This document shows, piece by piece, positions 2,706 through 14,709 of a DNA stretch of 14,946 nucleotides. How positions within the stretch are numbered: position 1 is the first letter of the stretch; every line of letters starts with the position of its first letter. The notes below the pieces were generated by a model that was given only the letters and a program-made list of their open reading frames with translations, ran no database searches and was not told the origin of the DNA. The position numbers and the translations under genes were made by a program. This DNA comes from Planctomycetota bacterium (GTDB lineage Bacteria > Planctomycetota > Planctomycetia > Pirellulales > Pirellulaceae): positions 1 to 14,946 of the forward strand of contig JAPLNJ010000704.1 of NCBI GenBank assembly GCA_026692885.1, in the 5' to 3' direction.

Positions 2706-4131
2706 ACCATCGAACCTTGCTTGCCGTGCTCGTGGCGACCGCTTTCCAGGCCGCGGCGCCGGCGGCGGAAGACAGCCGCCCGAAGCTGCCCTTCTCCGTC
2801 AAGGTGACTGAGGAGAAATTGGAGTCGCTGCCCGACTATATGGGACCGAAGAACCCGGTCGATATGGACTTCCCCTATTGCCCAGTGATGATCGATGGCG
2901 AGTACTGGATTATCTCCAGAAGTACCTCTCCTTCAATTACATCAGCGGCCTGTCGGTGTGCAACGACCTGACGAAGCAGGACTGGGGGCCTTCCTACTAC
3001 TTCGGCCCTTATTGGTGCAGCGGCGGGCTGGTCGGCACTTGGGCGACCAATGAGGCCAAGACCGATATTCATGCTGGCGGCCAGACGTTGTTCGTCTACG
3101 CTTTCTGGCAGAAGGCGGCGGCCCGCCAGTTTCGTATCGACCTGGGGCCGAGTGAGACCGCCGCAGTCGGATTCGTTTCGCCCTCGGTCTACCTGAGCAC
3201 GCCCAGTCAAGGGCATTGGGGCGTGACCGCGGAACCCGGACACTACTGCGGCTATACACCGCTGTTCGAATCGGCGGACCCGATTGAGAGCCGCCGCACC
3301 CGCCGGGTATCGAGCGCCAGCACGGAGCTGTCCTACCAGGGCCAATGGACCGACGAGGCGCACCAGAGCTACTACGAGGGCCAGGCGAAAGTCAGCGCGG
3401 TGGCCGGGGAGAGCGTCGCGCTGGCCTTCCACGGCGCGGACATCTACTGGCGGGCCGTGAAGGGACCGGACTGCGGCCAGGCCGACGTCTTCCTCGACGG
3501 TGTTCTGGCAAAGACCGTCGACTGCTATGCCAATCTCCCCACCACCTACCAGTTCGGATTCATCAAGACCGGACTGGATGCGAAGACGCCGCACACGATC
3601 AAGGTGGTCGTACGCGGCGACAGGAATTCCGCCTCGAAGGGCGCAGCGATCAAGCACATGCTCTTCGAATATGCCGCCGAAAGTTACCGGGCGTCGGACG
3701 GCTATTCTAGCGTCCCAGGTAAGAACCAGTGGCACAACCAGCAGCGGAGCGGCGGAGCCTATTCCGACATGACCTTCAAGGATCCGCACTGGAAGGGCGA
3801 CGATACGTGCGAGATCGGCTACTTTCACATGACGCCCGGCGTGGGCGACGCGGTGCGGAAATGGGTGGCCCCGCGCGCGGGCGTGGTCCGCGTCGAAAGC
3901 CGCGTGTCTCCGGATGGCGGCAACACCCGCGCCGTGAATGTGGCCATCCTGCATAACACCCGGGAAATCTGGCCGACGCAAACCGTCAAGGACAAGCCCG
4001 TTCTCCACGACCTGGAACTCACCGTGATCCCGGGCGACGCCCTGTACTTCATCGCCAGCAGGCAGGACGCGGCCAGCGGCCGCATCCATTGGGATCCGGT
4101 GGTCACGTACAAGGAGTACCCACATGACTAA
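2702..4131 (+). pseudogene. Secreted carbohydrate-active protein, frame broken near 2900-2915
   Basis: The first frame starts at ATG 2702 with a signal peptide (MNHRTLLAVLVATAFQAAAP) and reads FPYCPVMIDGEYWII, a motif like those of glycan-processing beta-propellers. Around 2900-2915 sensible coding moves to another frame, beginning DYLQKYLSFNYISGL and continuing to TAA 4129-4131. The second part has a jelly-roll-like module (about 3320-3690: DVFLDG, HTIKVVVRG, MLFEY). A final module (about 3700-4120) has GKNQWHN, VRKWVAPR.G.VRVE and a closing WDPVVTY, which I know as a frequent C-terminal domain of secreted planctomycete and verrucomicrobial proteins. The parts may be joined by an internal deletion rather than a single-base indel. 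The ATG overlaps the preceding stop (ATGA) and the end overlaps the next ORF by 8 bases. Confidence 0.6.
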
Positions 4132-4737: not shown

Positions 4738-5563
4738 GTGCTGATGCGCGCCTTGGTGGTAGGCATCAACGAGTACTGCACGCCGGACGTTCCGGTGCAG
4801 AACCTCCAGGGGTGTCTGAACGATGTGCAACTGCTGTTGGCGGTGCTGCAGTCCGTGTACGGTTGTCCGGCCAATCGCATCCGCACCTTGCTGGACTCAG
4901 AAGCCACGACGGCCAATCTGGAGCGGGCCTTCAGGGAGTGTGGTCGAGGGTGAACGGCTATTCTTCTACTACTCCGGGCATGGCGTCCGAGTTCCCGACA
5001 CGAACGGTGATGAACCGGATGGGTGGGATGACTCATTGGTACCCCACGACTTCTCGAAAGTCAGGCCCTTTCTGGACGATGAGATTCGGGCCTTCCGGGC
5101 TCGAGTTCCCGCAACGGCCAAGATGATCCTGGTGTTTGACTGCTGCCACGGCGGTGGCATGCCCCGCGCGCCCATGTCCACGAGTGCCGCCGACGCGGAG
5201 CGTCAGGCACAACGTCAGGTGCGGTACGTGTCCCCCCTCTCTCGAGACTTGTACTCCCACGCGCAGCTGCAGCAACTCCAGCGCCATAAACAGTCCTGCG
5301 GCATCGAGGCGATCGCCGAGAACTTCATCTGCCTGGCCGCGTGTGGGCGAGACGAGCAGGCCTATGAGCAACCGCTCGAGAACCGCCGACACGGCGTCTT
5401 CACCTACGCACTGGGCCAAATCTTGAAGGCCCGTGGCCCAACGGCGACGGCCCACGAGATCGAACGCGACTCGCAGGAATTCATCTCCCGGCTCGGGATC
5501 GAATTCCAGGTACCTTGCGTGCTTGGCAACCGGGCCTACTACGACATTCCGTTATTCGATTGA
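4738..5563 (+). pseudogene. Metacaspase-like peptidase (caspase-fold, C14), frameshifted at about 4940-4953
   Basis: The product is a Cys-His endopeptidase of the caspase/metacaspase clan, about 274 residues if the frame is restored, and so a bare catalytic domain. The first frame (GTG 4738 to TGA 4951-4953) has the opening strand RALVVGINEY and NLQGCLNDV. The second frame continues with LFFYYSGHG (His codon 4979-4981) and the acidic loop DTNGDEPDGWDDSLVPHD. It then has LVFDCCHGGG (catalytic Cys codon 5144-5146) and ends at TGA 5561-5563. Both dyad residues are present. The product is likely cytoplasmic, as no signal peptide is seen. A +1 change joins the frames: either an ordinary indel around 4938-4950 or recoding at CGA-GGG-TGA-A. 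The gene is first in a four-gene cluster with good ribosome sites and is paralogous to the N-terminus of the next protein. Confidence 0.7.
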
Positions 5564-5580
5564 GCTGACCCTCAGCAGCG

Positions 5581-5586
5581 AAGGAG
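5581..5586 (+). promoter_or_regulatory. Shine-Dalgarno AAGGAG deciding the GTG start at 5593
   Basis: AAGGAG precedes GTG 5593-5595 by six bases, 29 bases after the previous stop. This fixes the start of the fusion protein and supports cotranscription. Confidence 0.75.
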
Positions 5587-5592
5587 TAAGAC

Positions 5593-8500
5593 GTGAGCAC
5601 AAAGCGCGCCCTCGTGATCGGTATCAATCAGTACCCACTCCTGCCAGGACGGGACTTGGTGGGATGCGTGCATGATGCCCAACTGATGCAGTCGATCCTG
5701 GTAAATCGCTTCGGCTTCCCCGCGGAAAATGTCCGGATGCTGACGGACGGCGAGGCGACCCAAGCGGGGATCCGTTCCGCGTTCCAACGATTGCTGGACG
5801 AGACTGGCACGGACGATGTGGTGGTGGTCTTCTACGCCGGCCACGGTTCGCAGATGACGGATCGGGAAGGGGACGAACCGGACGGGCTGGACGAGACGAT
5901 CGTGCCTCACGACAGTGGCCGCGATCCCCAGCCGAACCGGGATATCACCGATGACGAACTGTACTTCGTCGTGCTGGAACTAAGCAAGAAGACCCCGCAC
6001 ATCACGCTAATCTTCGACTCTTGTCACTCGGCCACGATCACCCGCGATGTCTTTGGCGTGGGCTCGCGCTCGATTCCGGCCGACGAGCGCGGCGTGGAGG
6101 ACCTGCCGCCTTCACCGATCGCGGACAAGACGCCGTTGGTGCTGGGTAGCAATCTGGGGCCCAGCGGCTGGCTGCCCCTCGGATCCCGGTACGTCTTGCT
6201 CGCAGGTTGCCGTGCCGAGGAAAGTTCGTTCGAACATCGGCTGCATCAGGACGGCCAGGAACTGGTGCATGGAGCACTAACCTTCTTCCTCGCTCGCGAA
6301 CTGTCGCATGCCGAAACGGGTAGTACGTACCGCGATGTGTTCGAACGCGTCAGCAGCCAAGTAACCGTGGCCCACTCGCGTCAGCATCCGCAGATCGAAG
6401 GCACCCTGGATCGCGAGCTGTTCGGCACGCGGGACATCGCGCCGATGCGATTCGTGGCGATTACGGGGCGCATCGGTTCGCAAGTCACGCTGGCGGCCGG
6501 AGGGGCCCAGGGCTTGACCGTCAACTCGGCCTGGGCCATTTATGCCAGCGGCGTGAAGCAGATCCCGGAAAACGCCGTTCGTCTGGGACGCGTCCAGATC
6601 ACGAAAGTTGGCGCCGTGACATCCGAGGCCACGATTGAAAGCGAGTCGCAGCCGGGGATCATCGTGGAAGGTACCCGCGCGGTGGAGGAGAGCCGTTGCC
6701 AAGCCAGCATGAAACTGGCCGTCGAAGTGGTGGCGCCGGACGGCTACCGAGCGGACGCCGAGCAGTTACGGAACCTGATCCAGCAGTATCTCTTGCTGGA
6801 ATTGGCGCCGGCTGGTGCGGCCGCGGTGCGGGTTTACGTCGTGGCTCCGCGCGAAACGGCCGGACAACAGGACGCCGTGCCGCAGTTGGGCCCAGTGACC
6901 CACGCGACCTGGGCCGTGGTCGGCCAAGACGGCAAGCTCATCATGCCGCCGCATCGGGTCGATGAGCAGAACGCAGTGGGGATCGTCTGTGATAACCTGG
7001 AGAAGATCTGCCGCTACGAGAATGCGCTCCAATTGGAGAACCCAGACCGCAGCAACGAACTCGATGGCCAAATCGAGTTCGTTATCAAACGCCAACGGAG
7101 CGACGGGCAATGGGTGCCGGCCGAAGCGGATGCGACGGGCGCGGGCGTGACGTTTGAAGAAGGTGATCGGCTGGCGTTCACAATGACAAACAAATACCGT
7201 CAGCCACTCTACATCACGCTGCTGGACTTCGGCCTTACGGGCTGCATTGACCAAGCCTACCCTCATCGAGGTGCCAGCGAGGCCCTGGCGCCGGGGCGCA
7301 CCGTGACGATTGGCGAGCGAGCGGGCGAAGAACTGGAGTTGGTTTTTCCCGATAACTTTCCCTTCGTCGCGGATCCTGCGGAGCAGACGCCTGCGGAGGG
7401 CACAGAACACCTCAAGCTGTTTGTGACCACGGCTCCCGCGGATTTCAGTAGTCTCCTCCAGGCCGGCGTGCGCGACGCGGCCAAAGACGCACGCGCCACA
7501 GCGAATCCGCTGGAGCAACTGCTGGAGTTCGCGATGGTAGGCGGAGGTACTCGGGAACTCAAGCCGGTCAAACGCCCGCCAGCCGAGCAGTGGACGACGG
7601 TCACCCGCAGTTTCTCGCTGCGGCGTAAGGCGCCCAAGATCCGTTTGCCCGGAGATGACACGGCGGTTGTGGTTGGTGACAAGACGTTGCGGACTCCGGG
7701 ATTGACCGGGGTGGTACAAGTGCATGCGTCTTATCGTGCCCGGACACGCAGCGCGGAGTTGACGACGGATCGATTGGAGCAAGTGCTCGCCATCCAGAAC
7801 TGTACGCTCGGCGAGACGATCGAGATCATGGACGCCCGTGAGACCGGTCCCGCACGCGCCGTAACGCCATACCGCGAGCCCGCCCTGGAACTGGAGACGC
7901 CCGAGCCGGGGGCCGGCTGGGAGCAAGTGGTGCTCTACGCGGACGAAAGCGGCGTGCTGAGCTGGAATTTCACCGAGCCGGCGTCTCGGGGGGAGAACCG
8001 CCGCACCTACGTGCTTCGCCGACATGTGCCGCAGGCTGTGCCCGCCGGGGAACGCGGACTGATCGGCGCCGTCGGCCGCAAGCTCCTCAAGATGGTCCTG
8101 CTGCCATTGGTGGATCCGCTGATCGGCAAGATCAGCGAAACGTTTGCCCGGCGTTGGGAAGAGCGGCATCGTCCCTACCGCCTGCGGATGTTCACGCCCG
8201 ACGATTACCGTGCGGAGGTCCCCGACGCTTGGCATGCCGGGAACTGGCAGAAGCTCGCAAGCGGACGGTCGCTGCTGCTGATCCACGGCACGTTCAGCCG
8301 CGCGCATTCGGCTTTTGGAGCGTTGCCCCCAGAGTTCGTCGGTCAGCTGTGGGACCGATATCAAGGACGCGTGTTCGCCTTTGACCACTTCACGATGTCG
8401 GACAGCCCGCAGCAGAACGTGAAGTGGTTCCTGAACCAGATACCCGACGGCATAGCCCTCGATTTGGACGTCGTCTGTCATTCTCGCGGCGGGCTGGTCA

Positions 8501-9084
8501 GTCGCGTGCTTGCCGAGAAGTTGACGGAGGTTACGCCACGTCCCGAGCAGACGCGGATCCACAAGGTGGTGTTCGTCGCAAGTCCTAACGCCGGGACCAG
8601 GCTGGTCGACAACCAATATCTGGGCGATCTGCTCGACAGCCTGACGAACCTGATCAACTTCTTGCCCGATAACGGCGCCACCGACATCCTGGAGGGCGTG
8701 CTCACGGTGGTGCGGCAACTCTCGGTCGGGGTGCTCGGCGGGTTGGACGGCCTGCAGTCGATGCGGCCCGGGGGCCCGTTCCAGCAGTGGCTGAACCAAG
8801 GACCGCGCGGGCAGGCTCAATACTACGCCCTCGCGTCCAATTTCGAGCCAGCCAATCCCGGCTGGAAGGACTTTGCGAAGAACCGCTTAATGGACTGCGT
8901 CTTCCAGCAGGATAACGATCTCGTCGTGCCGACGGCCGGCGTCTTCGAGAACAACGGTTCGCCGATGTTCCCCATCGCGGACCGGCACGTATTCCCGCCC
9001 GCCGACGCGGTCAGCCACACGGTTCACGTGAACTCATCCCTGGCGGGGCAGGCCAATGCTCAGACGTTGTGCGGACCCTTCTGA
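5593..9084 (+). CDS. Metacaspase / DUF4384-like / alpha-beta hydrolase fusion protein
   Basis: The protein is intact, with 1163 residues and no signal peptide. Residues 1-280 are a metacaspase-like peptidase with ALVIGINQY, FYAGHG (His84), the acidic GDEPDGLDETIVPHD loop and FDSCHS (Cys144); the dyad is complete. Residues about 285-500 are beta-rich and unrecognised. Residues about 518-615 (FEEGDRLAF, LYITLLDF, AYPHRG, VFPDNFPF, KLFVTT) resemble DUF4384, a domain often found beside caspase and kinase modules. A further linker follows. Residues about 890-1150 are an alpha/beta hydrolase with LLIHGTFS (oxyanion region), the nucleophile elbow VCHSRGG (Ser964), NDLVVP with Asp1109 as likely acid, and His1142 or His1145 near the end. 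A protease and a lipase- or esterase-like domain on one chain suggest that proteolysis controls the hydrolase, but substrates are unknown. It follows its paralogue by 29 bp and precedes the TPR gene by 13 bp. Confidence 0.82.
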   Translation: MSTKRALVIGINQYPLLPGRDLVGCVHDAQLMQSILVNRFGFPAENVRMLTDGEATQAGIRSAFQRLLDETGTDDVVVVFYAGHGSQMTDREGDEPDGLDETIVPHDSGRDPQPNRDITDDELYFVVLELSKKTPHITLIFDSCHSATITRDVFGVGSRSIPADERGVEDLPPSPIADKTPLVLGSNLGPSGWLPLGSRYVLLAGCRAEESSFEHRLHQDGQELVHGALTFFLARELSHAETGSTYRDVFERVSSQVTVAHSRQHPQIEGTLDRELFGTRDIAPMRFVAITGRIGSQVTLAAGGAQGLTVNSAWAIYASGVKQIPENAVRLGRVQITKVGAVTSEATIESESQPGIIVEGTRAVEESRCQASMKLAVEVVAPDGYRADAEQLRNLIQQYLLLELAPAGAAAVRVYVVAPRETAGQQDAVPQLGPVTHATWAVVGQDGKLIMPPHRVDEQNAVGIVCDNLEKICRYENALQLENPDRSNELDGQIEFVIKRQRSDGQWVPAEADATGAGVTFEEGDRLAFTMTNKYRQPLYITLLDFGLTGCIDQAYPHRGASEALAPGRTVTIGERAGEELELVFPDNFPFVADPAEQTPAEGTEHLKLFVTTAPADFSSLLQAGVRDAAKDARATANPLEQLLEFAMVGGGTRELKPVKRPPAEQWTTVTRSFSLRRKAPKIRLPGDDTAVVVGDKTLRTPGLTGVVQVHASYRARTRSAELTTDRLEQVLAIQNCTLGETIEIMDARETGPARAVTPYREPALELETPEPGAGWEQVVLYADESGVLSWNFTEPASRGENRRTYVLRRHVPQAVPAGERGLIGAVGRKLLKMVLLPLVDPLIGKISETFARRWEERHRPYRLRMFTPDDYRAEVPDAWHAGNWQKLASGRSLLLIHGTFSRAHSAFGALPPEFVGQLWDRYQGRVFAFDHFTMSDSPQQNVKWFLNQIPDGIALDLDVVCHSRGGLVSRVLAEKLTEVTPRPEQTRIHKVVFVASPNAGTRLVDNQYLGDLLDSLTNLINFLPDNGATDILEGVLTVVRQLSVGVLGGLDGLQSMRPGGPFQQWLNQGPRGQAQYYALASNFEPANPGWKDFAKNRLMDCVFQQDNDLVVPTAGVFENNGSPMFPIADRHVFPPADAVSHTVHVNSSLAGQANAQTLCGPF

Positions 9085-9085
9085 C

Positions 9086-9089
9086 GGAG
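9086..9089 (+). promoter_or_regulatory. Shine-Dalgarno GGAG deciding the ATG start at 9098
   Basis: GGAG directly follows the preceding stop and lies eight bases before ATG 9098. This start gives a clean signal peptide, whereas the longer reading from 9056 would put 14 extra residues in front of it and overlap the fusion gene. Confidence 0.5.
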
Positions 9090-9097
9090 ACCGACTT

Positions 9098-11653
9098 ATG
9101 CCTACCCGTGGCACTCGCGTCTTGATCCTGACGGCGACGTTGGCGCTCTTAGGTTCTGCCGAAGTCGCGAATGGTCAGCGGGGCCGTCCGCTACCACCGC
9201 GGCCGGTGCCGCACGAATTCAAGCCGTATGAATTCAAGCCGTATGAAGGCAAAGGGATTGAGTACAAGCCCCACGATGGCAGATCCGAGCCGAGTCGTCT
9301 TGAGCCTTCCGAGAAGGCCCCCCACGAAGGCGGACGTGACAACGAAGCTAGTCGAAAGTCACGTTCTTAATCCCCAGGCTCGCTCGGAACGAGGAACCGA
9401 TTGGCGCGGGAAATTATTGGATCTCCAATTGGACGCGAAGATCGCTCCGCTTCGCGCGTTGAACGACCTGCGGAGCCAAGCTTCAGCGTTTTCCGGGCCA
9501 ACCTGCGAGGGGCTGGCTGATATGGCTTTGGCAGAGATGGGCCAGCAGGTTCATAAGGGCAGTGAGCCAGTTGCCCTCTTGCGCGAGCTTGACGCAACGC
9601 TAAGGCGCTATGAAGCCGGCCGTGAAACGGGCTCTGTCGGGAATTCCGTTCAGAATAGAGTTGTCGCGGGGTTGGGGCGTTTGAAGGAGGGACTTGCGGA
9701 GCGCGCATGGCGCGACGGTCTCGACAAGATCGCCAAACCCGCTGAAAGCAACCATTGGGCGGCTGCACGAGATAGTGCCCGTTCGTTGTTGGAGGGGCTC
9801 AAGTCGGTGTCGTCGGATGCCCCCCACGCGGCGGCGGCCAAGACCGTCCAGCGGTTCGCCGAGGTCGCGGAACGGCAAGTACTATTGGACGCGGTGTCCA
9901 AGGCGTTGGACGGTGACTTCGGCCCGGCCTCACGACTGCCCACCCGTGAGTCATTAGCCAGCTTTCCCGCATCCTTGCGCCGCGCTCTTGATTATGTTCG
10001 TCACTGTCAGATATTGTACGCCGAGACGGCGAAGTCAGACGAGCAGCCCCCGGAGCCAGCCAAGATCCGCTTCGCCATCGCCGAACTCACAGCGAATGAA
10101 CCAAGCGTGCGGAACCCGCTCCGGCACGTCGAGATCGAGTTGGCCGTGCAGGCCTTTCTGCAAGGCCATCCTGCGCCGGCGCGCGACCTGCTGAAAGACG
10201 CCACCTGTGATCGCCGGGAGGATGAAGGTCCCACAGACCATGACACTTCCTTCGCGGATCTGGTACGAGATCTGAAAGCGGTAGTGGTCGGCGAGGGAAA
10301 GCTGGACGGGGATGGCGTCGGGACGAAGGTCGGCGACGAGCACACGGGTTTGCACCCGGCGCGCGGGCCTCCGCCAGGGGCCGCCAAGTTCTTACTTCCG
10401 GAAGCCGGGGTGCTTAGTTATCGTCCGCCGCTCGTCGAATCGCCATTCGGAAAACTGCCGCCCCTGAAGCGGGCCATCGACGCGATCGCTATTCCGTTGC
10501 GCGAGGAGGCCAGAACGAAAGCCCGGGAGGAATCCGCCCAGACCCGAACAGAATCGCAAGCCGCCCTGAAGGAGCTAAGGCAAGTGGCGGCCGGATTTCC
10601 GCGCGCGCCGCCAGTTCCAATTCCGGGCGATGACGAGAAACGCAAACGCTTCGCGGCGTCGTTGACGTCAAGCTTGTCCGCGAGTGATTCTTCGGGGCAC
10701 GACGCGGTGTGGTATTTGAATCGCGGTTTGGACTCTCACAAGCGAGGCGATGAGAATCAGGCGTTGGAGGAATTCGCTGCTGCCTTGTCGGTCAGGCCAT
10801 CAGCGATCTCGAAATCGCGGTCAACCTGGAGCCCACCAACGGAAAGGCATTTTCGCTACTTGGTACGGCTTGGCGATTGAAAAAAGACTACGACAAGTCC
10901 ATCGAGAACTACACTCAAGCGATTCGTCTTGAACCAACCGCTGTGCGTTTCGCACTGCGAGCTGGCGTTTGGCGAAACCAACAGGAGCACAGCAAAGCCT
11001 TGGCGGATGTCGCTGAATCCATTAAGCGAGATCTGCATGAAAGCTTGGCTTACTCGGTCGCTGGAGATATCTGGTCTGCGAGGAAAGAATTCGACAAAGC
11101 CTTGGCGGAGTACACCAAAGTGATCGAACAGGATCCCAAGTCGGCGGACGCCTATGTAGACCGAGGGGATGCATTTCTTGCAATGCAAGAATTCGACCGA
11201 GCCGTCAAGGATTACAGTCGAGCTGTCGAGCTGGCCCCCGGCAGGGCCGGTTTCTTGATCGACCGCGGGCGCGCGTACAGGCGATCCGGACGGTATCGGG
11301 ACGCACTTGCGGACTACGCATGTGCCCTTAAGAAGGATTCCAAGAGCGCGCGGGCTCTCAGCTGCCAAGCTTGGCTTCTGGCAACGTGCGAAAAGGACGG
11401 GTTTCGTGACGGCAAGCGAGCCGTTGAGAGCGCCACGCAGGCATGTGTCCTCGATGCGTGGCGCGACTGGCAAGGACTGGAAATCCTCGCGGCAGCCTAT
11501 GCCGAACAAGGCAATTTCATGGAAGCCGTAGAGTGGCAGCAGAAAGCCATCGAACTAGCGCCGCTGGAGGAAGTCGAGCAACTGAGGTCCCGCCTGTCCT
11601 TGTTTCGGGAACGAAAACCTTACCGCGATCATGTCGAACGCCGGCCAAATTGA
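9098..11653 (+). pseudogene. Exported TPR-repeat protein with two frame disruptions
   Basis: ATG 9098 opens with a signal peptide (MPTRGTRVLILTATLALLGS), then a Pro/Tyr/Lys segment with a duplicated EFKPY. That frame ends at TAA 9368-9370, but coding character continues in the +1 frame (SHVLNPQARSERG onward) as a long, mostly alpha-helical region to about 10790. A second shift near 10785-10805 leads to the third frame, with AISDLEIAVNLEP and then about six TPR units (TQAIRLEP, TKVIEQDP, SRAVELAP, KAIELAP) to TGA 11651-11653. At the second break the end of one TPR helix abuts the middle of the next, so roughly 20 residues seem deleted. TPRs bind proteins; the role would be scaffold or sensor, and export of the intact ancestor is inferred from the signal peptide. 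The stop overlaps the CHAT start by 23 bases. Confidence 0.6.
9215..9244 (+). repeat. Perfect 15-bp tandem duplication (EFKPY twice)
   Basis: GAATTCAAGCCGTAT occurs twice in direct succession and encodes EFKPY-EFKPY; a degenerate third and fourth unit (EGKGI, EYKPH) follow. It lies just after the signal peptide of the TPR protein and probably forms a flexible, expandable linker. Confidence 0.85.
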
Positions 11654-14393
11654 GCACAAAATCGCAGCCGCACTTGCCAGCTCCGACTGCCAGCGGGCGG
11701 AAGTTTTGGCGGAACAGTACCGGGACCAAGCTCAGGAACCGGTCGCGGGGGAACTCGCGCAATCCGAGTGGTTCCGGTCGCGATACCTGTCGGTCCGCGT
11801 GAGTCTGCATAGCGGTCAATTGGAAGCAGTTCTGAAATACGCCGAGCCGCTTTTGGGCCGTGTCCACGATGTCCCGCCCGAATTGGCCTGCGAACTGTTG
11901 TTAACGGTCGCCGAAGTCCGCGCTCGGCTGGGACAGACCACAGACGCCAGGAACGCCTTGGCGAAAGCGGTAATATTCGACAGGCTGCTGCAAACCGATC
12001 GCCTCCTGCGGCTCCGGCACCTTCGGGCCAGACTGTTGCTGGGCGACGTGTCGCAGTTGGCCAGCGAGTTGACTGCCTGCTATCGGATGCTGGAGCAGGA
12101 CCATGCCAACCATGCGCTCCTGTTGATCGAGGAAGGACGCGCATGGGAAAGCACGGGAGACTTGCGCCGCGCAGAAGCCTGTTGGCAGCACGCCGGCACG
12201 ATCGCGCAGCAGGTCGGTGCATCGCCCGTGCGGACCGACGCCCTCCTGCAGCTCGGCCGGTTGCGGCATCTGCGCGGCGAACTCCAGGCGGCGTTGGATG
12301 CTTACGATGAGGCGGCCGAGAATGCCATCGCAGGGACGCCTCAGGTGCTGGAACTCCGCCTGCGCCACCTGTTGGTCGAACTCGAACTAAACCGCTGGAA
12401 GCAAGTGCAGGCGACTTATCGGCGACTGCTGCCGGACGACCTTCGCGCGAAGTTGCCGTCCGAACTGCGGGGCTTGGCTGCCACGCTGGGTGTGCTGTTG
12501 GAGGGAGACGCCGGTGCACCGGACAACGCCGAGCTCCGGGCCTATCGCAGTGCTTCTCGCGGCGATCGAGCGACGGCGCGGAGGCAGTATACAGCGGCTT
12601 TCGAGTCGGCCCAAGATCCGGTACGCCGGGCGCGATTGGCACTCGCGCTCGGCCTGTTGGAGTTGGCTGAGGCGAATCGCACAGAAGCCCAGCGCTGGTT
12701 GGACTTGGCGGAGCCGTTGGCTCGCGCCCACGGACTAGACGAAGTGCTCTGGCGGTGCCTGGAGGCACGCGGCCAAGCGTTCGCGGAAATCGACTCGGAC
12801 GACGAACGTGCGCGGCCGTGCTACGAGGAAGCGATTGCCGTTTCCGAGCGACAACGCGCCCAATTCCGTAGCGGGCTCGACGCGGCCGCCTATGCCGTCC
12901 ACCGCACGACGGTCGCCCAGTATCTATTGCGAGGTGTCGCACGGCGCGACGACGGTGCGAGTCTGTTTCAATATCAGGAACTGGAGCGTGGCCGGCTGCA
13001 ACTCGAATTGCGACTGGCTGGCGAACGCCGCGAGGGTTTTCCCGAGAACGCTGCCTGGGAGCAACTGTCTCGCGAATGGAAGGAACTGGCGGAGCATGCC
13101 CGGCCCGACGACCCGGCCGGGTCCGGAAGGGGCGATCCGCAGAGCGTCGAACAAGAACGGCTGCTGGAGCAATATCTTTCCGATGCCAGCCGCCGTGGCG
13201 ACTATGCGATTCCCGCGATGAGCACACTCGCGGATTTGGAACGGAGCTTGCCGTCCGGTTCCGTTTTCGTGTCCGCCAGTATCGTGGAAGACGAGATCTT
13301 CTGGTTGGTCGTCCGCCCAGGAAAGTCGTTCCAAATCGTGCGGGTGCCGGATGCCAATGCAGTGACCGCGCAGGTGCGGCGTCTGCGTCAGTGCATCGAA
13401 AGCCAACTGCGCAGCTCGGCACGCAGCCAGGAGCGTGGGGAACTCGACAAACACCTGACGGCTCTGGGAGAAGGCCCCCTGGGGACGGCCTTGGGACAAA
13501 CGCTGCGATCGGGCGAGAAGGTGCCGGAACGAGTGCTTTGGATTCCCGACGGGGACCTCTCCGGGCTGCCCCTCCATGCAGTGCGTTGGAAAGGCCGGTA
13601 TCTGATTGAGACCCACGAATTCGTGTATGACTTCTCCGGTTCGTGGGTCGTGTACCAGGCGCAGGCGTCACACCGTCGGCGACTTCGTTGGGGCGGACCA
13701 CTGATGGTGGTGGAAAGCCCAGAGAGACTGCGGTTTGCAGAACGAGAAGCCGAGGGGGTGGCGATGCATCTCGCGCACAGTCGCATTCTGCGTCGCGACC
13801 AAGCAAATCGCGAGAACATTCACCGGTATCTGCGACGCGCGAAGCTGCTCCATGTCGCCTGCCACGCTCACTTTGACCCGCATCGGCCCGCCGACGCCTA
13901 CGTGCAGTTGCCGTCCGGAGAATCCTGGCATGGGGTCGAATGGCTGAACGGCGATTTGCTCGGAATGCCGTTGGTGGCACTGAGCGCGTGCCGGACGGCT
14001 CAGACGTCCGCGGTGGTGGGCCAGGAGGTCTTTGGGCTGGTCTCGGCGGCTCTGGCAGGAGGCGCCGGCAACGTCCTGGCCGGACTTTGGCCGGTACTTG
14101 ATCAAGACGCCGTGGCCCTGATGTGTCGGTTCTATCATCATTGGCTGACCCAACCGGCTTCGACAGCTTTGGCGTTGGCCCAGCGCGAGGCCCTGGCCGA
14201 TGCGCGCAGCAGTCCCTTGGCGTGGGCCGTTTTTGCTCTCTTCGGCGATTGCCGCCCGTGTATCGGTTCTCGCTGGTGGTGGCGTTGGTGGGCGCGCTTC
14301 CGGCAGAGACGCCAGGAATCTGCTCGGCCTGTTCACGACGCTGCAATTCATCGAGGGGTGTTCCGTACGGATCGAACCGGTCGTCCTCGTTGA
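11631..14393 (+). CDS. TPR-CHAT peptidase
   Basis: The protein has 920 residues. Residues about 1-460 are helical TPR-like repeats (GDLRRAEACW, GELQAALDAYDEA, NRTEAQRWLDLA). Residues about 465-530 form a charged linker, and about 535-875 a CHAT domain, the caspase-like fold of clan CD. Visible CHAT features are SVFVSASIVEDEIFWLVV, WIPDGDLSGLPLHA, LLHVACHAHFD (catalytic His745), LVALSACRTA (catalytic Cys787) and AGNVLAGLWPV. The dyad is intact. In known TPR-CHAT proteins the TPRs bind a partner that activates cleavage. No signal peptide or clear membrane segment is seen. The ATG lies 23 bases inside the preceding gene with no good ribosome site, which suggests coupling. From about residue 897 (position 14319) the sequence is the antisense of an ECF sigma gene, so the last 24 residues are probably not ancestral. 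The basic, Trp-rich tail at about 880-895 may be native. Confidence 0.85.
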   Translation: MSNAGQIEHKIAAALASSDCQRAEVLAEQYRDQAQEPVAGELAQSEWFRSRYLSVRVSLHSGQLEAVLKYAEPLLGRVHDVPPELACELLLTVAEVRARLGQTTDARNALAKAVIFDRLLQTDRLLRLRHLRARLLLGDVSQLASELTACYRMLEQDHANHALLLIEEGRAWESTGDLRRAEACWQHAGTIAQQVGASPVRTDALLQLGRLRHLRGELQAALDAYDEAAENAIAGTPQVLELRLRHLLVELELNRWKQVQATYRRLLPDDLRAKLPSELRGLAATLGVLLEGDAGAPDNAELRAYRSASRGDRATARRQYTAAFESAQDPVRRARLALALGLLELAEANRTEAQRWLDLAEPLARAHGLDEVLWRCLEARGQAFAEIDSDDERARPCYEEAIAVSERQRAQFRSGLDAAAYAVHRTTVAQYLLRGVARRDDGASLFQYQELERGRLQLELRLAGERREGFPENAAWEQLSREWKELAEHARPDDPAGSGRGDPQSVEQERLLEQYLSDASRRGDYAIPAMSTLADLERSLPSGSVFVSASIVEDEIFWLVVRPGKSFQIVRVPDANAVTAQVRRLRQCIESQLRSSARSQERGELDKHLTALGEGPLGTALGQTLRSGEKVPERVLWIPDGDLSGLPLHAVRWKGRYLIETHEFVYDFSGSWVVYQAQASHRRRLRWGGPLMVVESPERLRFAEREAEGVAMHLAHSRILRRDQANRENIHRYLRRAKLLHVACHAHFDPHRPADAYVQLPSGESWHGVEWLNGDLLGMPLVALSACRTAQTSAVVGQEVFGLVSAALAGGAGNVLAGLWPVLDQDAVALMCRFYHHWLTQPASTALALAQREALADARSSPLAWAVFALFGDCRPCIGSRWWWRWWARFRQRRQESARPVHDAAIHRGVFRTDRTGRPR

Positions 14394-14709
14394 TCGGCCG
14401 CGTGCGAGACAGGCACGCCCGAGTTCGATTTCGGCGGCCACGGGTGTACAACAGATTCAAAGCGATCCGATAGAGCCAGGTGTAGAACGCGCAGCGCTGC
14501 CGGAAGGTGGCGAGTTTCAGGTAAGCCTGGACGAAGGCGTCCTGCGTGATTTCCTCGGCGTCCCCATGCACGCCAGCGACATGGCGGAGGCCGGTGAACA
14601 ATTGGTCTTGGTACTTGCGAACCAACTGTCCAAAGGCATCTGAATTGCCCGCCAGCGACCGTTCGATAAGTTGTTTGTCGGTCGTATTTTGTTCGGTTGT
14701 CGTGAACAT
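14320..14709 (-). pseudogene. ECF sigma factor truncated after region 2
   Basis: From ATG 14709 the minus strand encodes about 130 residues of an RpoE-like ECF sigma factor. It has an N-terminal TDKQLIERSLAGNSDAFGQL helix, then GDAEEITQDAFVQAYLKL and FYTWLYRIALNLL (core-RNAP-binding and -10-recognition region 2), then a charged linker ending LDELQRREQAEQ. Region 4 (-35 recognition) should follow within about 60 codons. Instead, from 14319 the frame reads the antisense of the CHAT gene and stays open only because that strand is GC-rich. The fragment is convergent with the CHAT gene and overlaps its last 74 bases. A start at 14748 (MNWHSD) is possible; neither start has a good ribosome site. 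Region 2 alone is unlikely to direct transcription, though it could bind core RNA polymerase. Confidence 0.75.

Follow-up and report, generated by a model that had tools for sequence, protein, structure and literature searches.

Gasdermins of bacteria are activated by caspase-fold peptidases. The 14,946-nt window that we analyzed comprises the single 14.9-kb contig JAPLNJ010000704.1 of a Planctomycetota bacterium (Pirellulaceae), and it contains a cluster of four genes, the second of which encodes a metacaspase fused to a lipase-fold hydrolase. As a kind, the pairing of a caspase with a hydrolase is known: in the accessible sections of Kaur et al. 2020 (PMC7159879), VMAP caspases are described as always having an alpha/beta-hydrolase neighbor, and joint action is proposed. 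The main text of that paper does not use the word “lipid”; in the accessible part of a follow-up (PMC8195603), the alpha/beta-hydrolases are said to act on membrane lipids. Protease-activated pro-nucleases have been shown as well, and these include caspase-nuclease loci with tetratricopeptide repeats (TPRs), according to the accessible sections of PMC12799240. We propose that the planctomycete cluster is a protease-gated lipase, in which an Arg-preferring caspase-fold peptidase would activate a lipase proenzyme in cis or in trans; we give this reading an about even chance of being right.

Gene 2 (positions 5593..9084, + strand) starts with GTG, is intact, and encodes 1163 amino acids. Its metacaspase domain (residues 1-290; 5593..6462) matches Peptidase C14 (PF00656) with 92.2 bits against a cut-off of 21.4 and carries the His/Cys dyad; H84 and C144 are invariant in the relatives that are ungapped at these positions (116 and 117 of 120, window included). 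The C-terminal hydrolase (residues 889-1163; 8257..9081) matches DUF7379 (PF24096) with 176.8 bits against a cut-off of 33 and carries a Ser-Asp-His triad, with S964 in a CHSRGG motif and D1109 and H1142 downstream (conserved in 114/119, 118/118, and 118/118 relatives, respectively). The fusion of a serine hydrolase to a metacaspase, which had been read from the letters in a first-pass annotation of this DNA, is thus borne out. Relatives of gene 2 comprise 330 proteins at E ≤ 1e-20 among 7995 scored, gene 2 itself counted. Between the two catalytic domains lie a middle region (residues 291-675; 6463..7617), which stands behind such a caspase domain in the loci scanned and has a weak match to DUF4384 at 520-614 that falls under the cut-off, and residues 680-820 (7630..8052), which in the predicted structure are mainly a beta-sandwich ahead of the lipase and which we propose as a gating prodomain. 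Among the matches listed, the fold nearest to the lipase part is that of BlEst2, for which there is one entry of a propeptide form and one of a mature form, judging by their titles. Because the model of the whole fusion has a mean predicted local distance difference test score (pLDDT) of 71.4 and a predicted template modeling score (pTM) of 0.40, we used it for the caspase domain only. We also considered a membrane-inserting helix that would be exposed after the cut; although very hydrophobic, the segment has a strand at its core in the better structure model, and we rejected this candidate. No relative of gene 2 or of gene 4 was found in the viral contigs searched, and the phages searched with one separate lipase gave no match.

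The loop between the beta-sandwich and the lipase holds the likely cut site of the predicted proenzyme, Arg821-Gly822 (8053..8058). Across 120 relatives no residue of the linker from 814 to 820 exceeds 0.56 identity; position 821 is Arg in 119 of them and Lys once, and position 822 is Gly in 116 and Ser in 2. The loop has pLDDT <50 in the better structure model. The same Arg occurs in lipases taken from mixed contexts (n=50, 10 from fusions), where it is present in 49 and followed by Gly in 36, Ser in 11, and Ala in 2; the sole exception, L074, has no protease partner. We added seven more lipases, most from an Actinomycetota sample in which 8 of 336 genomes have DUF7379 (L163 equals L059 and was not counted). 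Arg-Gly is present in L116, L158, L160, L162, and L165, and L164 has Val in place of Arg on a 7.9-kb contig (L167) that has no caspase-fold gene. Overall the Arg is kept in 54 of 57 mixed lipases and is lacking in both partnerless ones (L074 and L164), although the 57 are not independent, because several are close relatives (Nocardia). CHAT peptidases are akin to separase. In the accessible part of a review (PMC4357240), the P1 residue is Arg for clostripain and separase and Arg or Lys for metacaspases.

A scan of genome contigs covered 79 loci, from the best 80 of 163 candidates. Twenty fusion loci were compared with the window, with L008, L020, and L023 excluded because a contig end cuts the gene; the beta-sandwich module gave no match in one of the 20, L130. 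Another clan-CD peptidase gene lies within 6 kb in 12 of the 20, on the same strand in 11 and directly adjacent in 9. These partners are varied: a caspase-nSTAND1-WD40 protein and then CHAT (L002, L017), a clostripain-like C11 peptidase with CHAT on the other side (L005), C11 and then caspase-nSTAND1 (L006), a TPR-S-caspase (L007, and on the opposite strand in L018), CHAT (L125, L127, L152, and two copies in L129), and caspase (L135, L029). His and Cys are kept in the 8 CHAT and 7 C14 partners that were checked. That the neighbors are so varied, and that some of them bring a STAND NTPase and WD40 repeats, is in keeping with the partner acting as a sensor. We counted the association by Pfam search in 14 of the 20 fusion genomes (one of the six omitted genomes, that of L029, has a partner). 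These 14 hold 32 CHAT and 21 other C14 genes, and 14 of the 53 lie near a fusion, in 11 of 14 genomes, where ~0.18 would be expected from a 15.5-kb stretch in a 4.5-Mb genome (Poisson P ~4e-22); the partner cases are not fully independent, because L002 and L017 share one arrangement. The same four-gene set as in the window was found in 0 of the 20 other fusion loci, and none of them has a TPR-CHAT protein with the domain layout of gene 4 beside the fusion; in L125, the only partner with a C-terminal CHAT, the match to gene 4 is mainly over a 75-residue CHAT segment. Joint occurrence of the four genes elsewhere, whose absence the first-pass annotation had named as a refuter, was not seen in these loci; the protease-lipase principle was.

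The scan also contains two split forms of the fusion: caspase-middle proteins without a lipase, some beside CHAT, and beta-sandwich-lipase proteins without a caspase. A CHAT gene lies directly upstream of 38 of the 42 non-redundant lipase open reading frames (ORFs) without a caspase, with 24-133 bp from the CHAT stop to the start of the lipase-module match. Among the remaining four, L087 is fused to CHAT, L033 and L116 are at a contig end, and L074 has no CHAT and is preceded by an AMP-binding enzyme. By record titles, the stand-alone lipases come from taxa that include Pseudomonadota, Actinomycetota, Acidobacteriota, Gemmatimonadota, and Planctomycetota. An alignment of 34 of the 38 CHAT partners shows no variation at the dyad His and Cys, and all 34 match CHAT. 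A recurring peptidase next to the fusion together with CHAT ahead of the free lipases is consistent with a hydrolase effector on which a protease acts. The earlier suggestion that a protease activates an effector here thus gains from the peptidase neighbors and the upstream CHAT genes, but not from the four-gene set itself.

Several related arrangements were seen alongside these. The commonest neighbor family of the CHAT-lipase pairs is CHAT (7 of 103 ORFs), and in several loci, among them L042, L061, and L069, another CHAT gene lies next to the pair. On a Ruegeria pomeroyi megaplasmid (L157, 5680-11577), DUF7379 and CHAT form a single chain, followed 36 bp on by a SIR2-like + AAA gene, a make-up reminiscent of defense genes; L158 and L168 are single chains of ~1800 amino acids that combine CHAT with several lipase-like segments. 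Caspase-middle proteins without a lipase stand beside CHAT genes in L012-L016, L139, L140, and L144, from cyanobacteria, Chloroflexi, a Calditrichia metagenome-assembled genome, and the planctomycete sample, and they are a second caspase-CHAT partnership. In L144 (3-13318), from a planctomycete-sample genome, caspase, caspase-middle, CHAT, and caspase genes are consecutive on one strand.

The fold, the catalytic residues, the gene linkage, and the conserved Arg are computational results. From them we infer a cut, its effect, lipid as the substrate, an outcome in cell death or defense, and the direction of the cascade. Specifically, the DUF7379 hydrolase would be kept behind the beta-sandwich and its own metacaspase domain in gene 2 until an Arg-preferring caspase-fold peptidase cleaves Arg821-Gly822, which would free or open the lipase to attack the cell's membrane lipids. 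Where the lipase is separate, the CHAT protein of the gene directly upstream would cut it in trans; in fusions the cut would fall to the fused caspase (in cis) or to a neighboring peptidase (in trans), and the fused caspase may itself be triggered or backed up by a neighboring sensor-peptidase. The related genomes suggest that such neighboring proteases turn the lipase on. In the window, the TPR-CHAT protein of gene 4 and the small metacaspase of gene 1 are candidate initiators, with the TPRs as the putative sensing part. The cluster is probably a self-destruct module with which the bacterium would damage its own membrane. A wider proposal, which we advance tentatively and at somewhat less than an even chance, is that this is a widespread module with a lipase executioner, one Arg-Gly/Ser/Ala site, and any Arg-cutting caspase-fold peptidase, of which the window would hold a three-peptidase version.

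The four genes of the window are all on the + strand, with gaps of 29 bp between genes 1 and 2 (5563 to 5593) and 13 bp between genes 2 and 3 (9084 to 9098) and an overlap of 23 bp between genes 3 and 4 (11631-11653), as previously annotated. Predictions of promoters and terminators across the cluster were no better than in shuffles, so its status as an operon rests on spacing. Gene 1 (4738..5563), a small metacaspase (Peptidase_C14), begins with GTG at 4738 and is not a single open frame: its caspase profile is split, the part from 3 to 57 being matched in the frame of the GTG, which runs to the stop at 4951-4953, and the part from 73 to 222 in the next one. A codon-preference measure trained on intact ORFs changes frame in the same stretch, before that stop; by this measure gene 1 shifts once and gene 3 twice. 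The GHG and DCCHG motifs of gene 1 are both within its second frame and, with H84/C144 of gene 2 and H745/C787 of gene 4, complete the Cys-His dyads claimed for the three caspase-fold peptidases. Gene 3 (9098..11653) has a signal-peptide-like start (9098-9370, judged by eye), a middle part, and a TPR array at 10877-11653, with frame switches at ~9300-9370, where there is a run of C, and ~10780-10860. Because it changes frame twice, the product called an exported TPR protein is present only as three pieces. For its middle (9171-10880), the sole match among 7991 scored candidates is the window's own protein.

Gene 4 (11631..14393) is intact and encodes 920 amino acids. Its CHAT peptidase domain (PF12770; residues 619-873, 13485..14249) scores 139.3 bits against a cut-off of 24, and H745 and C787 are invariant across 22 aligned sequences, window included. 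Its own TPR signal is weak (19.9 vs 30.1 bits at the cut-off), although TPR families are listed for many of its relatives. Relatives of gene 4 at E 1e-60 were found in 0 of 392 planctomycete-sample genomes, and its type of TPR-CHAT at E ≤ 1e-30 in 0 of 1 genome searched, both without a positive control, so that this silence shows little. Upstream of the cluster are two long + strand ORFs (1035-2705 and 2878-4131) that match no Pfam family over the cut-off. The - strand holds, at 14316-14709, a sigma factor of which only region 2 is present (Sigma70_r2); since its homology and that of gene 4 both end near 14310-14316, this spot marks either a truncation of the sigma gene or a misjoin of the contig.

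Could this locus have decayed, or been misassembled, so that its four genes would not function together? The frame-broken state of genes 1 and 3, three changes in all, also weighs against protease gating in this window, and the truncated sigma factor next door, the shared end of the sigma-factor and TPR-CHAT homologies, and the run of C in gene 3 point the same way. Genes 2 and 4, however, are intact over ~6.2 kb of coding sequence with their catalytic residues kept, and frame changes next to homopolymers fit sequencing error too; we consider decay or misassembly unlikely, but a serious contender. A different objection is that the peptidases and the lipase could be two co-delivered effectors, one degrading proteins and the other lipids, with no activation and with Arg821 kept for folding. 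Operon linkage and fusion indicate joint use, not order, and R799, F837, G845, P861, and R865 on either side of R821 are each conserved in 119-120 of 120 relatives; since F837, G845, P861, and R865 are as conserved as Arg821, it could be structural. The Arg nevertheless follows a variable, gapped linker, sits in a low-confidence loop of the model, and is gone in both partnerless lipases, two negatives only, which together make this alternative distinctly unlikely. The peptidase might instead cut to inactivate a housekeeping lipase, which would give the same gene pairs and the same conserved Arg. We regard this as quite improbable, because the cut would separate the beta-sandwich from a complete lipase fold, a pattern of prodomain removal that is matched by the propeptide and mature forms of BlEst2.

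Other observations count against protease gating of the lipase more generally. By the profiles used, 8 of the 20 fusion loci have no caspase-fold neighbor (L001, L003, L004, L010, L126, L130, L153, and L154; among them, the locus runs up against a contig edge in L010 and L153, and the 3′ flank of L003 is short), nor do any of four compact fusions from the planctomycete sample (L131-L134). The serine at the position of S964 is missing in 5 of 119 relatives, and L004 lacks the lipase serine. Val or Phe follows the Arg in 2 of 120 relatives (one each), and L166 (L168), a lipase-CHAT chain of ~1800 residues, has Lys and then Ile, with no small residue. Cleavage preference within the clan is mixed: in the accessible part of PMC4357240, other clan-CD families cleave after Asp, Asn, or Leu; for animal caspases, legumain, and the MARTX peptidase the review gives residues other than Arg, and its table has no CHAT preference. 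Finally, PADLOC gave no clear defense-island signal among the neighbors of pairs and fusions; in 103 of 116 pair-neighbor ORFs, SAVED_CHAT has 5 members and 17 other families have 1 or 2 each, and in 88 of 110 fusion-neighbor ORFs (a set without the caspase-fold partners and a number of short ORFs) each of the 25 families shown, out of 85, has 5 members, and kinase models are among them.

Set beside known systems, the protease-gated lipase that we propose shares parts with several. Its gene 4 has the TPR and CHAT layout of Csx29 of type III-E CRISPR. The match between a profile of the relatives of gene 4 and solved chains with a CHAT domain, which we take to be Csx29, is weak (best E 2.3e-4), and the NCBIfam Csx29 model (NF041237) scores 26.3 bits against a cut-off of 300; the model of the EACC1-associated caspase (NF047832) gives 34.3 and 35.6 bits, below its cut-off of 140. 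In agreement with the first-pass annotation, which saw no gasdermin or CRISPR component, the window ORFs scanned on this 14.9-kb contig include no gRAMP/Cas7-11, Csx30, or Cas family and no gasdermin family. As in bacterial gasdermin systems, a clan-CD peptidase would unleash a membrane-damaging effector; unlike in those systems, the effector would be an enzyme and not a pore.

The VMAP/MoxR-vWA ternary systems, predicted conflict systems according to the accessible sections of PMC7159879, likewise combine a caspase-superfamily peptidase with an alpha/beta-hydrolase neighbor, a combination found here in the gene 2 fusion and in the 38 CHAT-lipase pairs. TCAD7 (in Pfam, “ternary complex associated domain”), which 17 of the 34 aligned CHAT partners also match, is a link to them. 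They differ in the hydrolase, which here is DUF7379, carries a beta-sandwich, and occurs either in one chain with a metacaspase or as the partner of CHAT. No VMAP core, MoxR, or vWA is among the window ORFs scanned, where parts outside the contig could be missed, or in the 25 families shown of 140 for the 103 neighbor ORFs of the CHAT-lipase pairs. With the caspase-nuclease (canu) and trypsin-nuclease pairs (PMC12799240, accessible sections), the proposed system would share a peptidase adjoining a pro-effector that is inactive until cut, and TPRs in some loci. Unlike in canu, the effector is a lipase-fold hydrolase and not an MBL nuclease (no MBL family is among the window ORFs scanned), the peptidase can be CHAT, C14, or C11, and the cut is predicted at a single conserved Arg.

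We found no paper on DUF7379 or TCAD7 in the literature searched, which lacks most subscription papers and preprints, and among the matches listed no title or abstract start describes a pair of CHAT or caspase with lipase or hydrolase. Within that literature, a lipase that would act as executioner and has one predicted Arg site looks new, as do the clostripain and STAND-caspase partners and the CHAT-lipase pairs whose neighbor families shown include no MoxR, vWA, or VMAP. The bare observation of a hydrolase next to a caspase becomes a concrete test: one residue (Arg821), one predicted cut, and one predicted gain of lipase activity. If the proposal is true, the unexplained domain DUF7379 gains a function, and the peptidases that serve the lipase are a caspase in cis and CHAT, caspase-STAND, TPR-S-caspase, or clostripain in trans. 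Bacteria would then have an enzymatic equivalent of the gasdermin pathway: a lipid-cutting executioner under gasdermin-like control, with the activating peptidase swapped between families.

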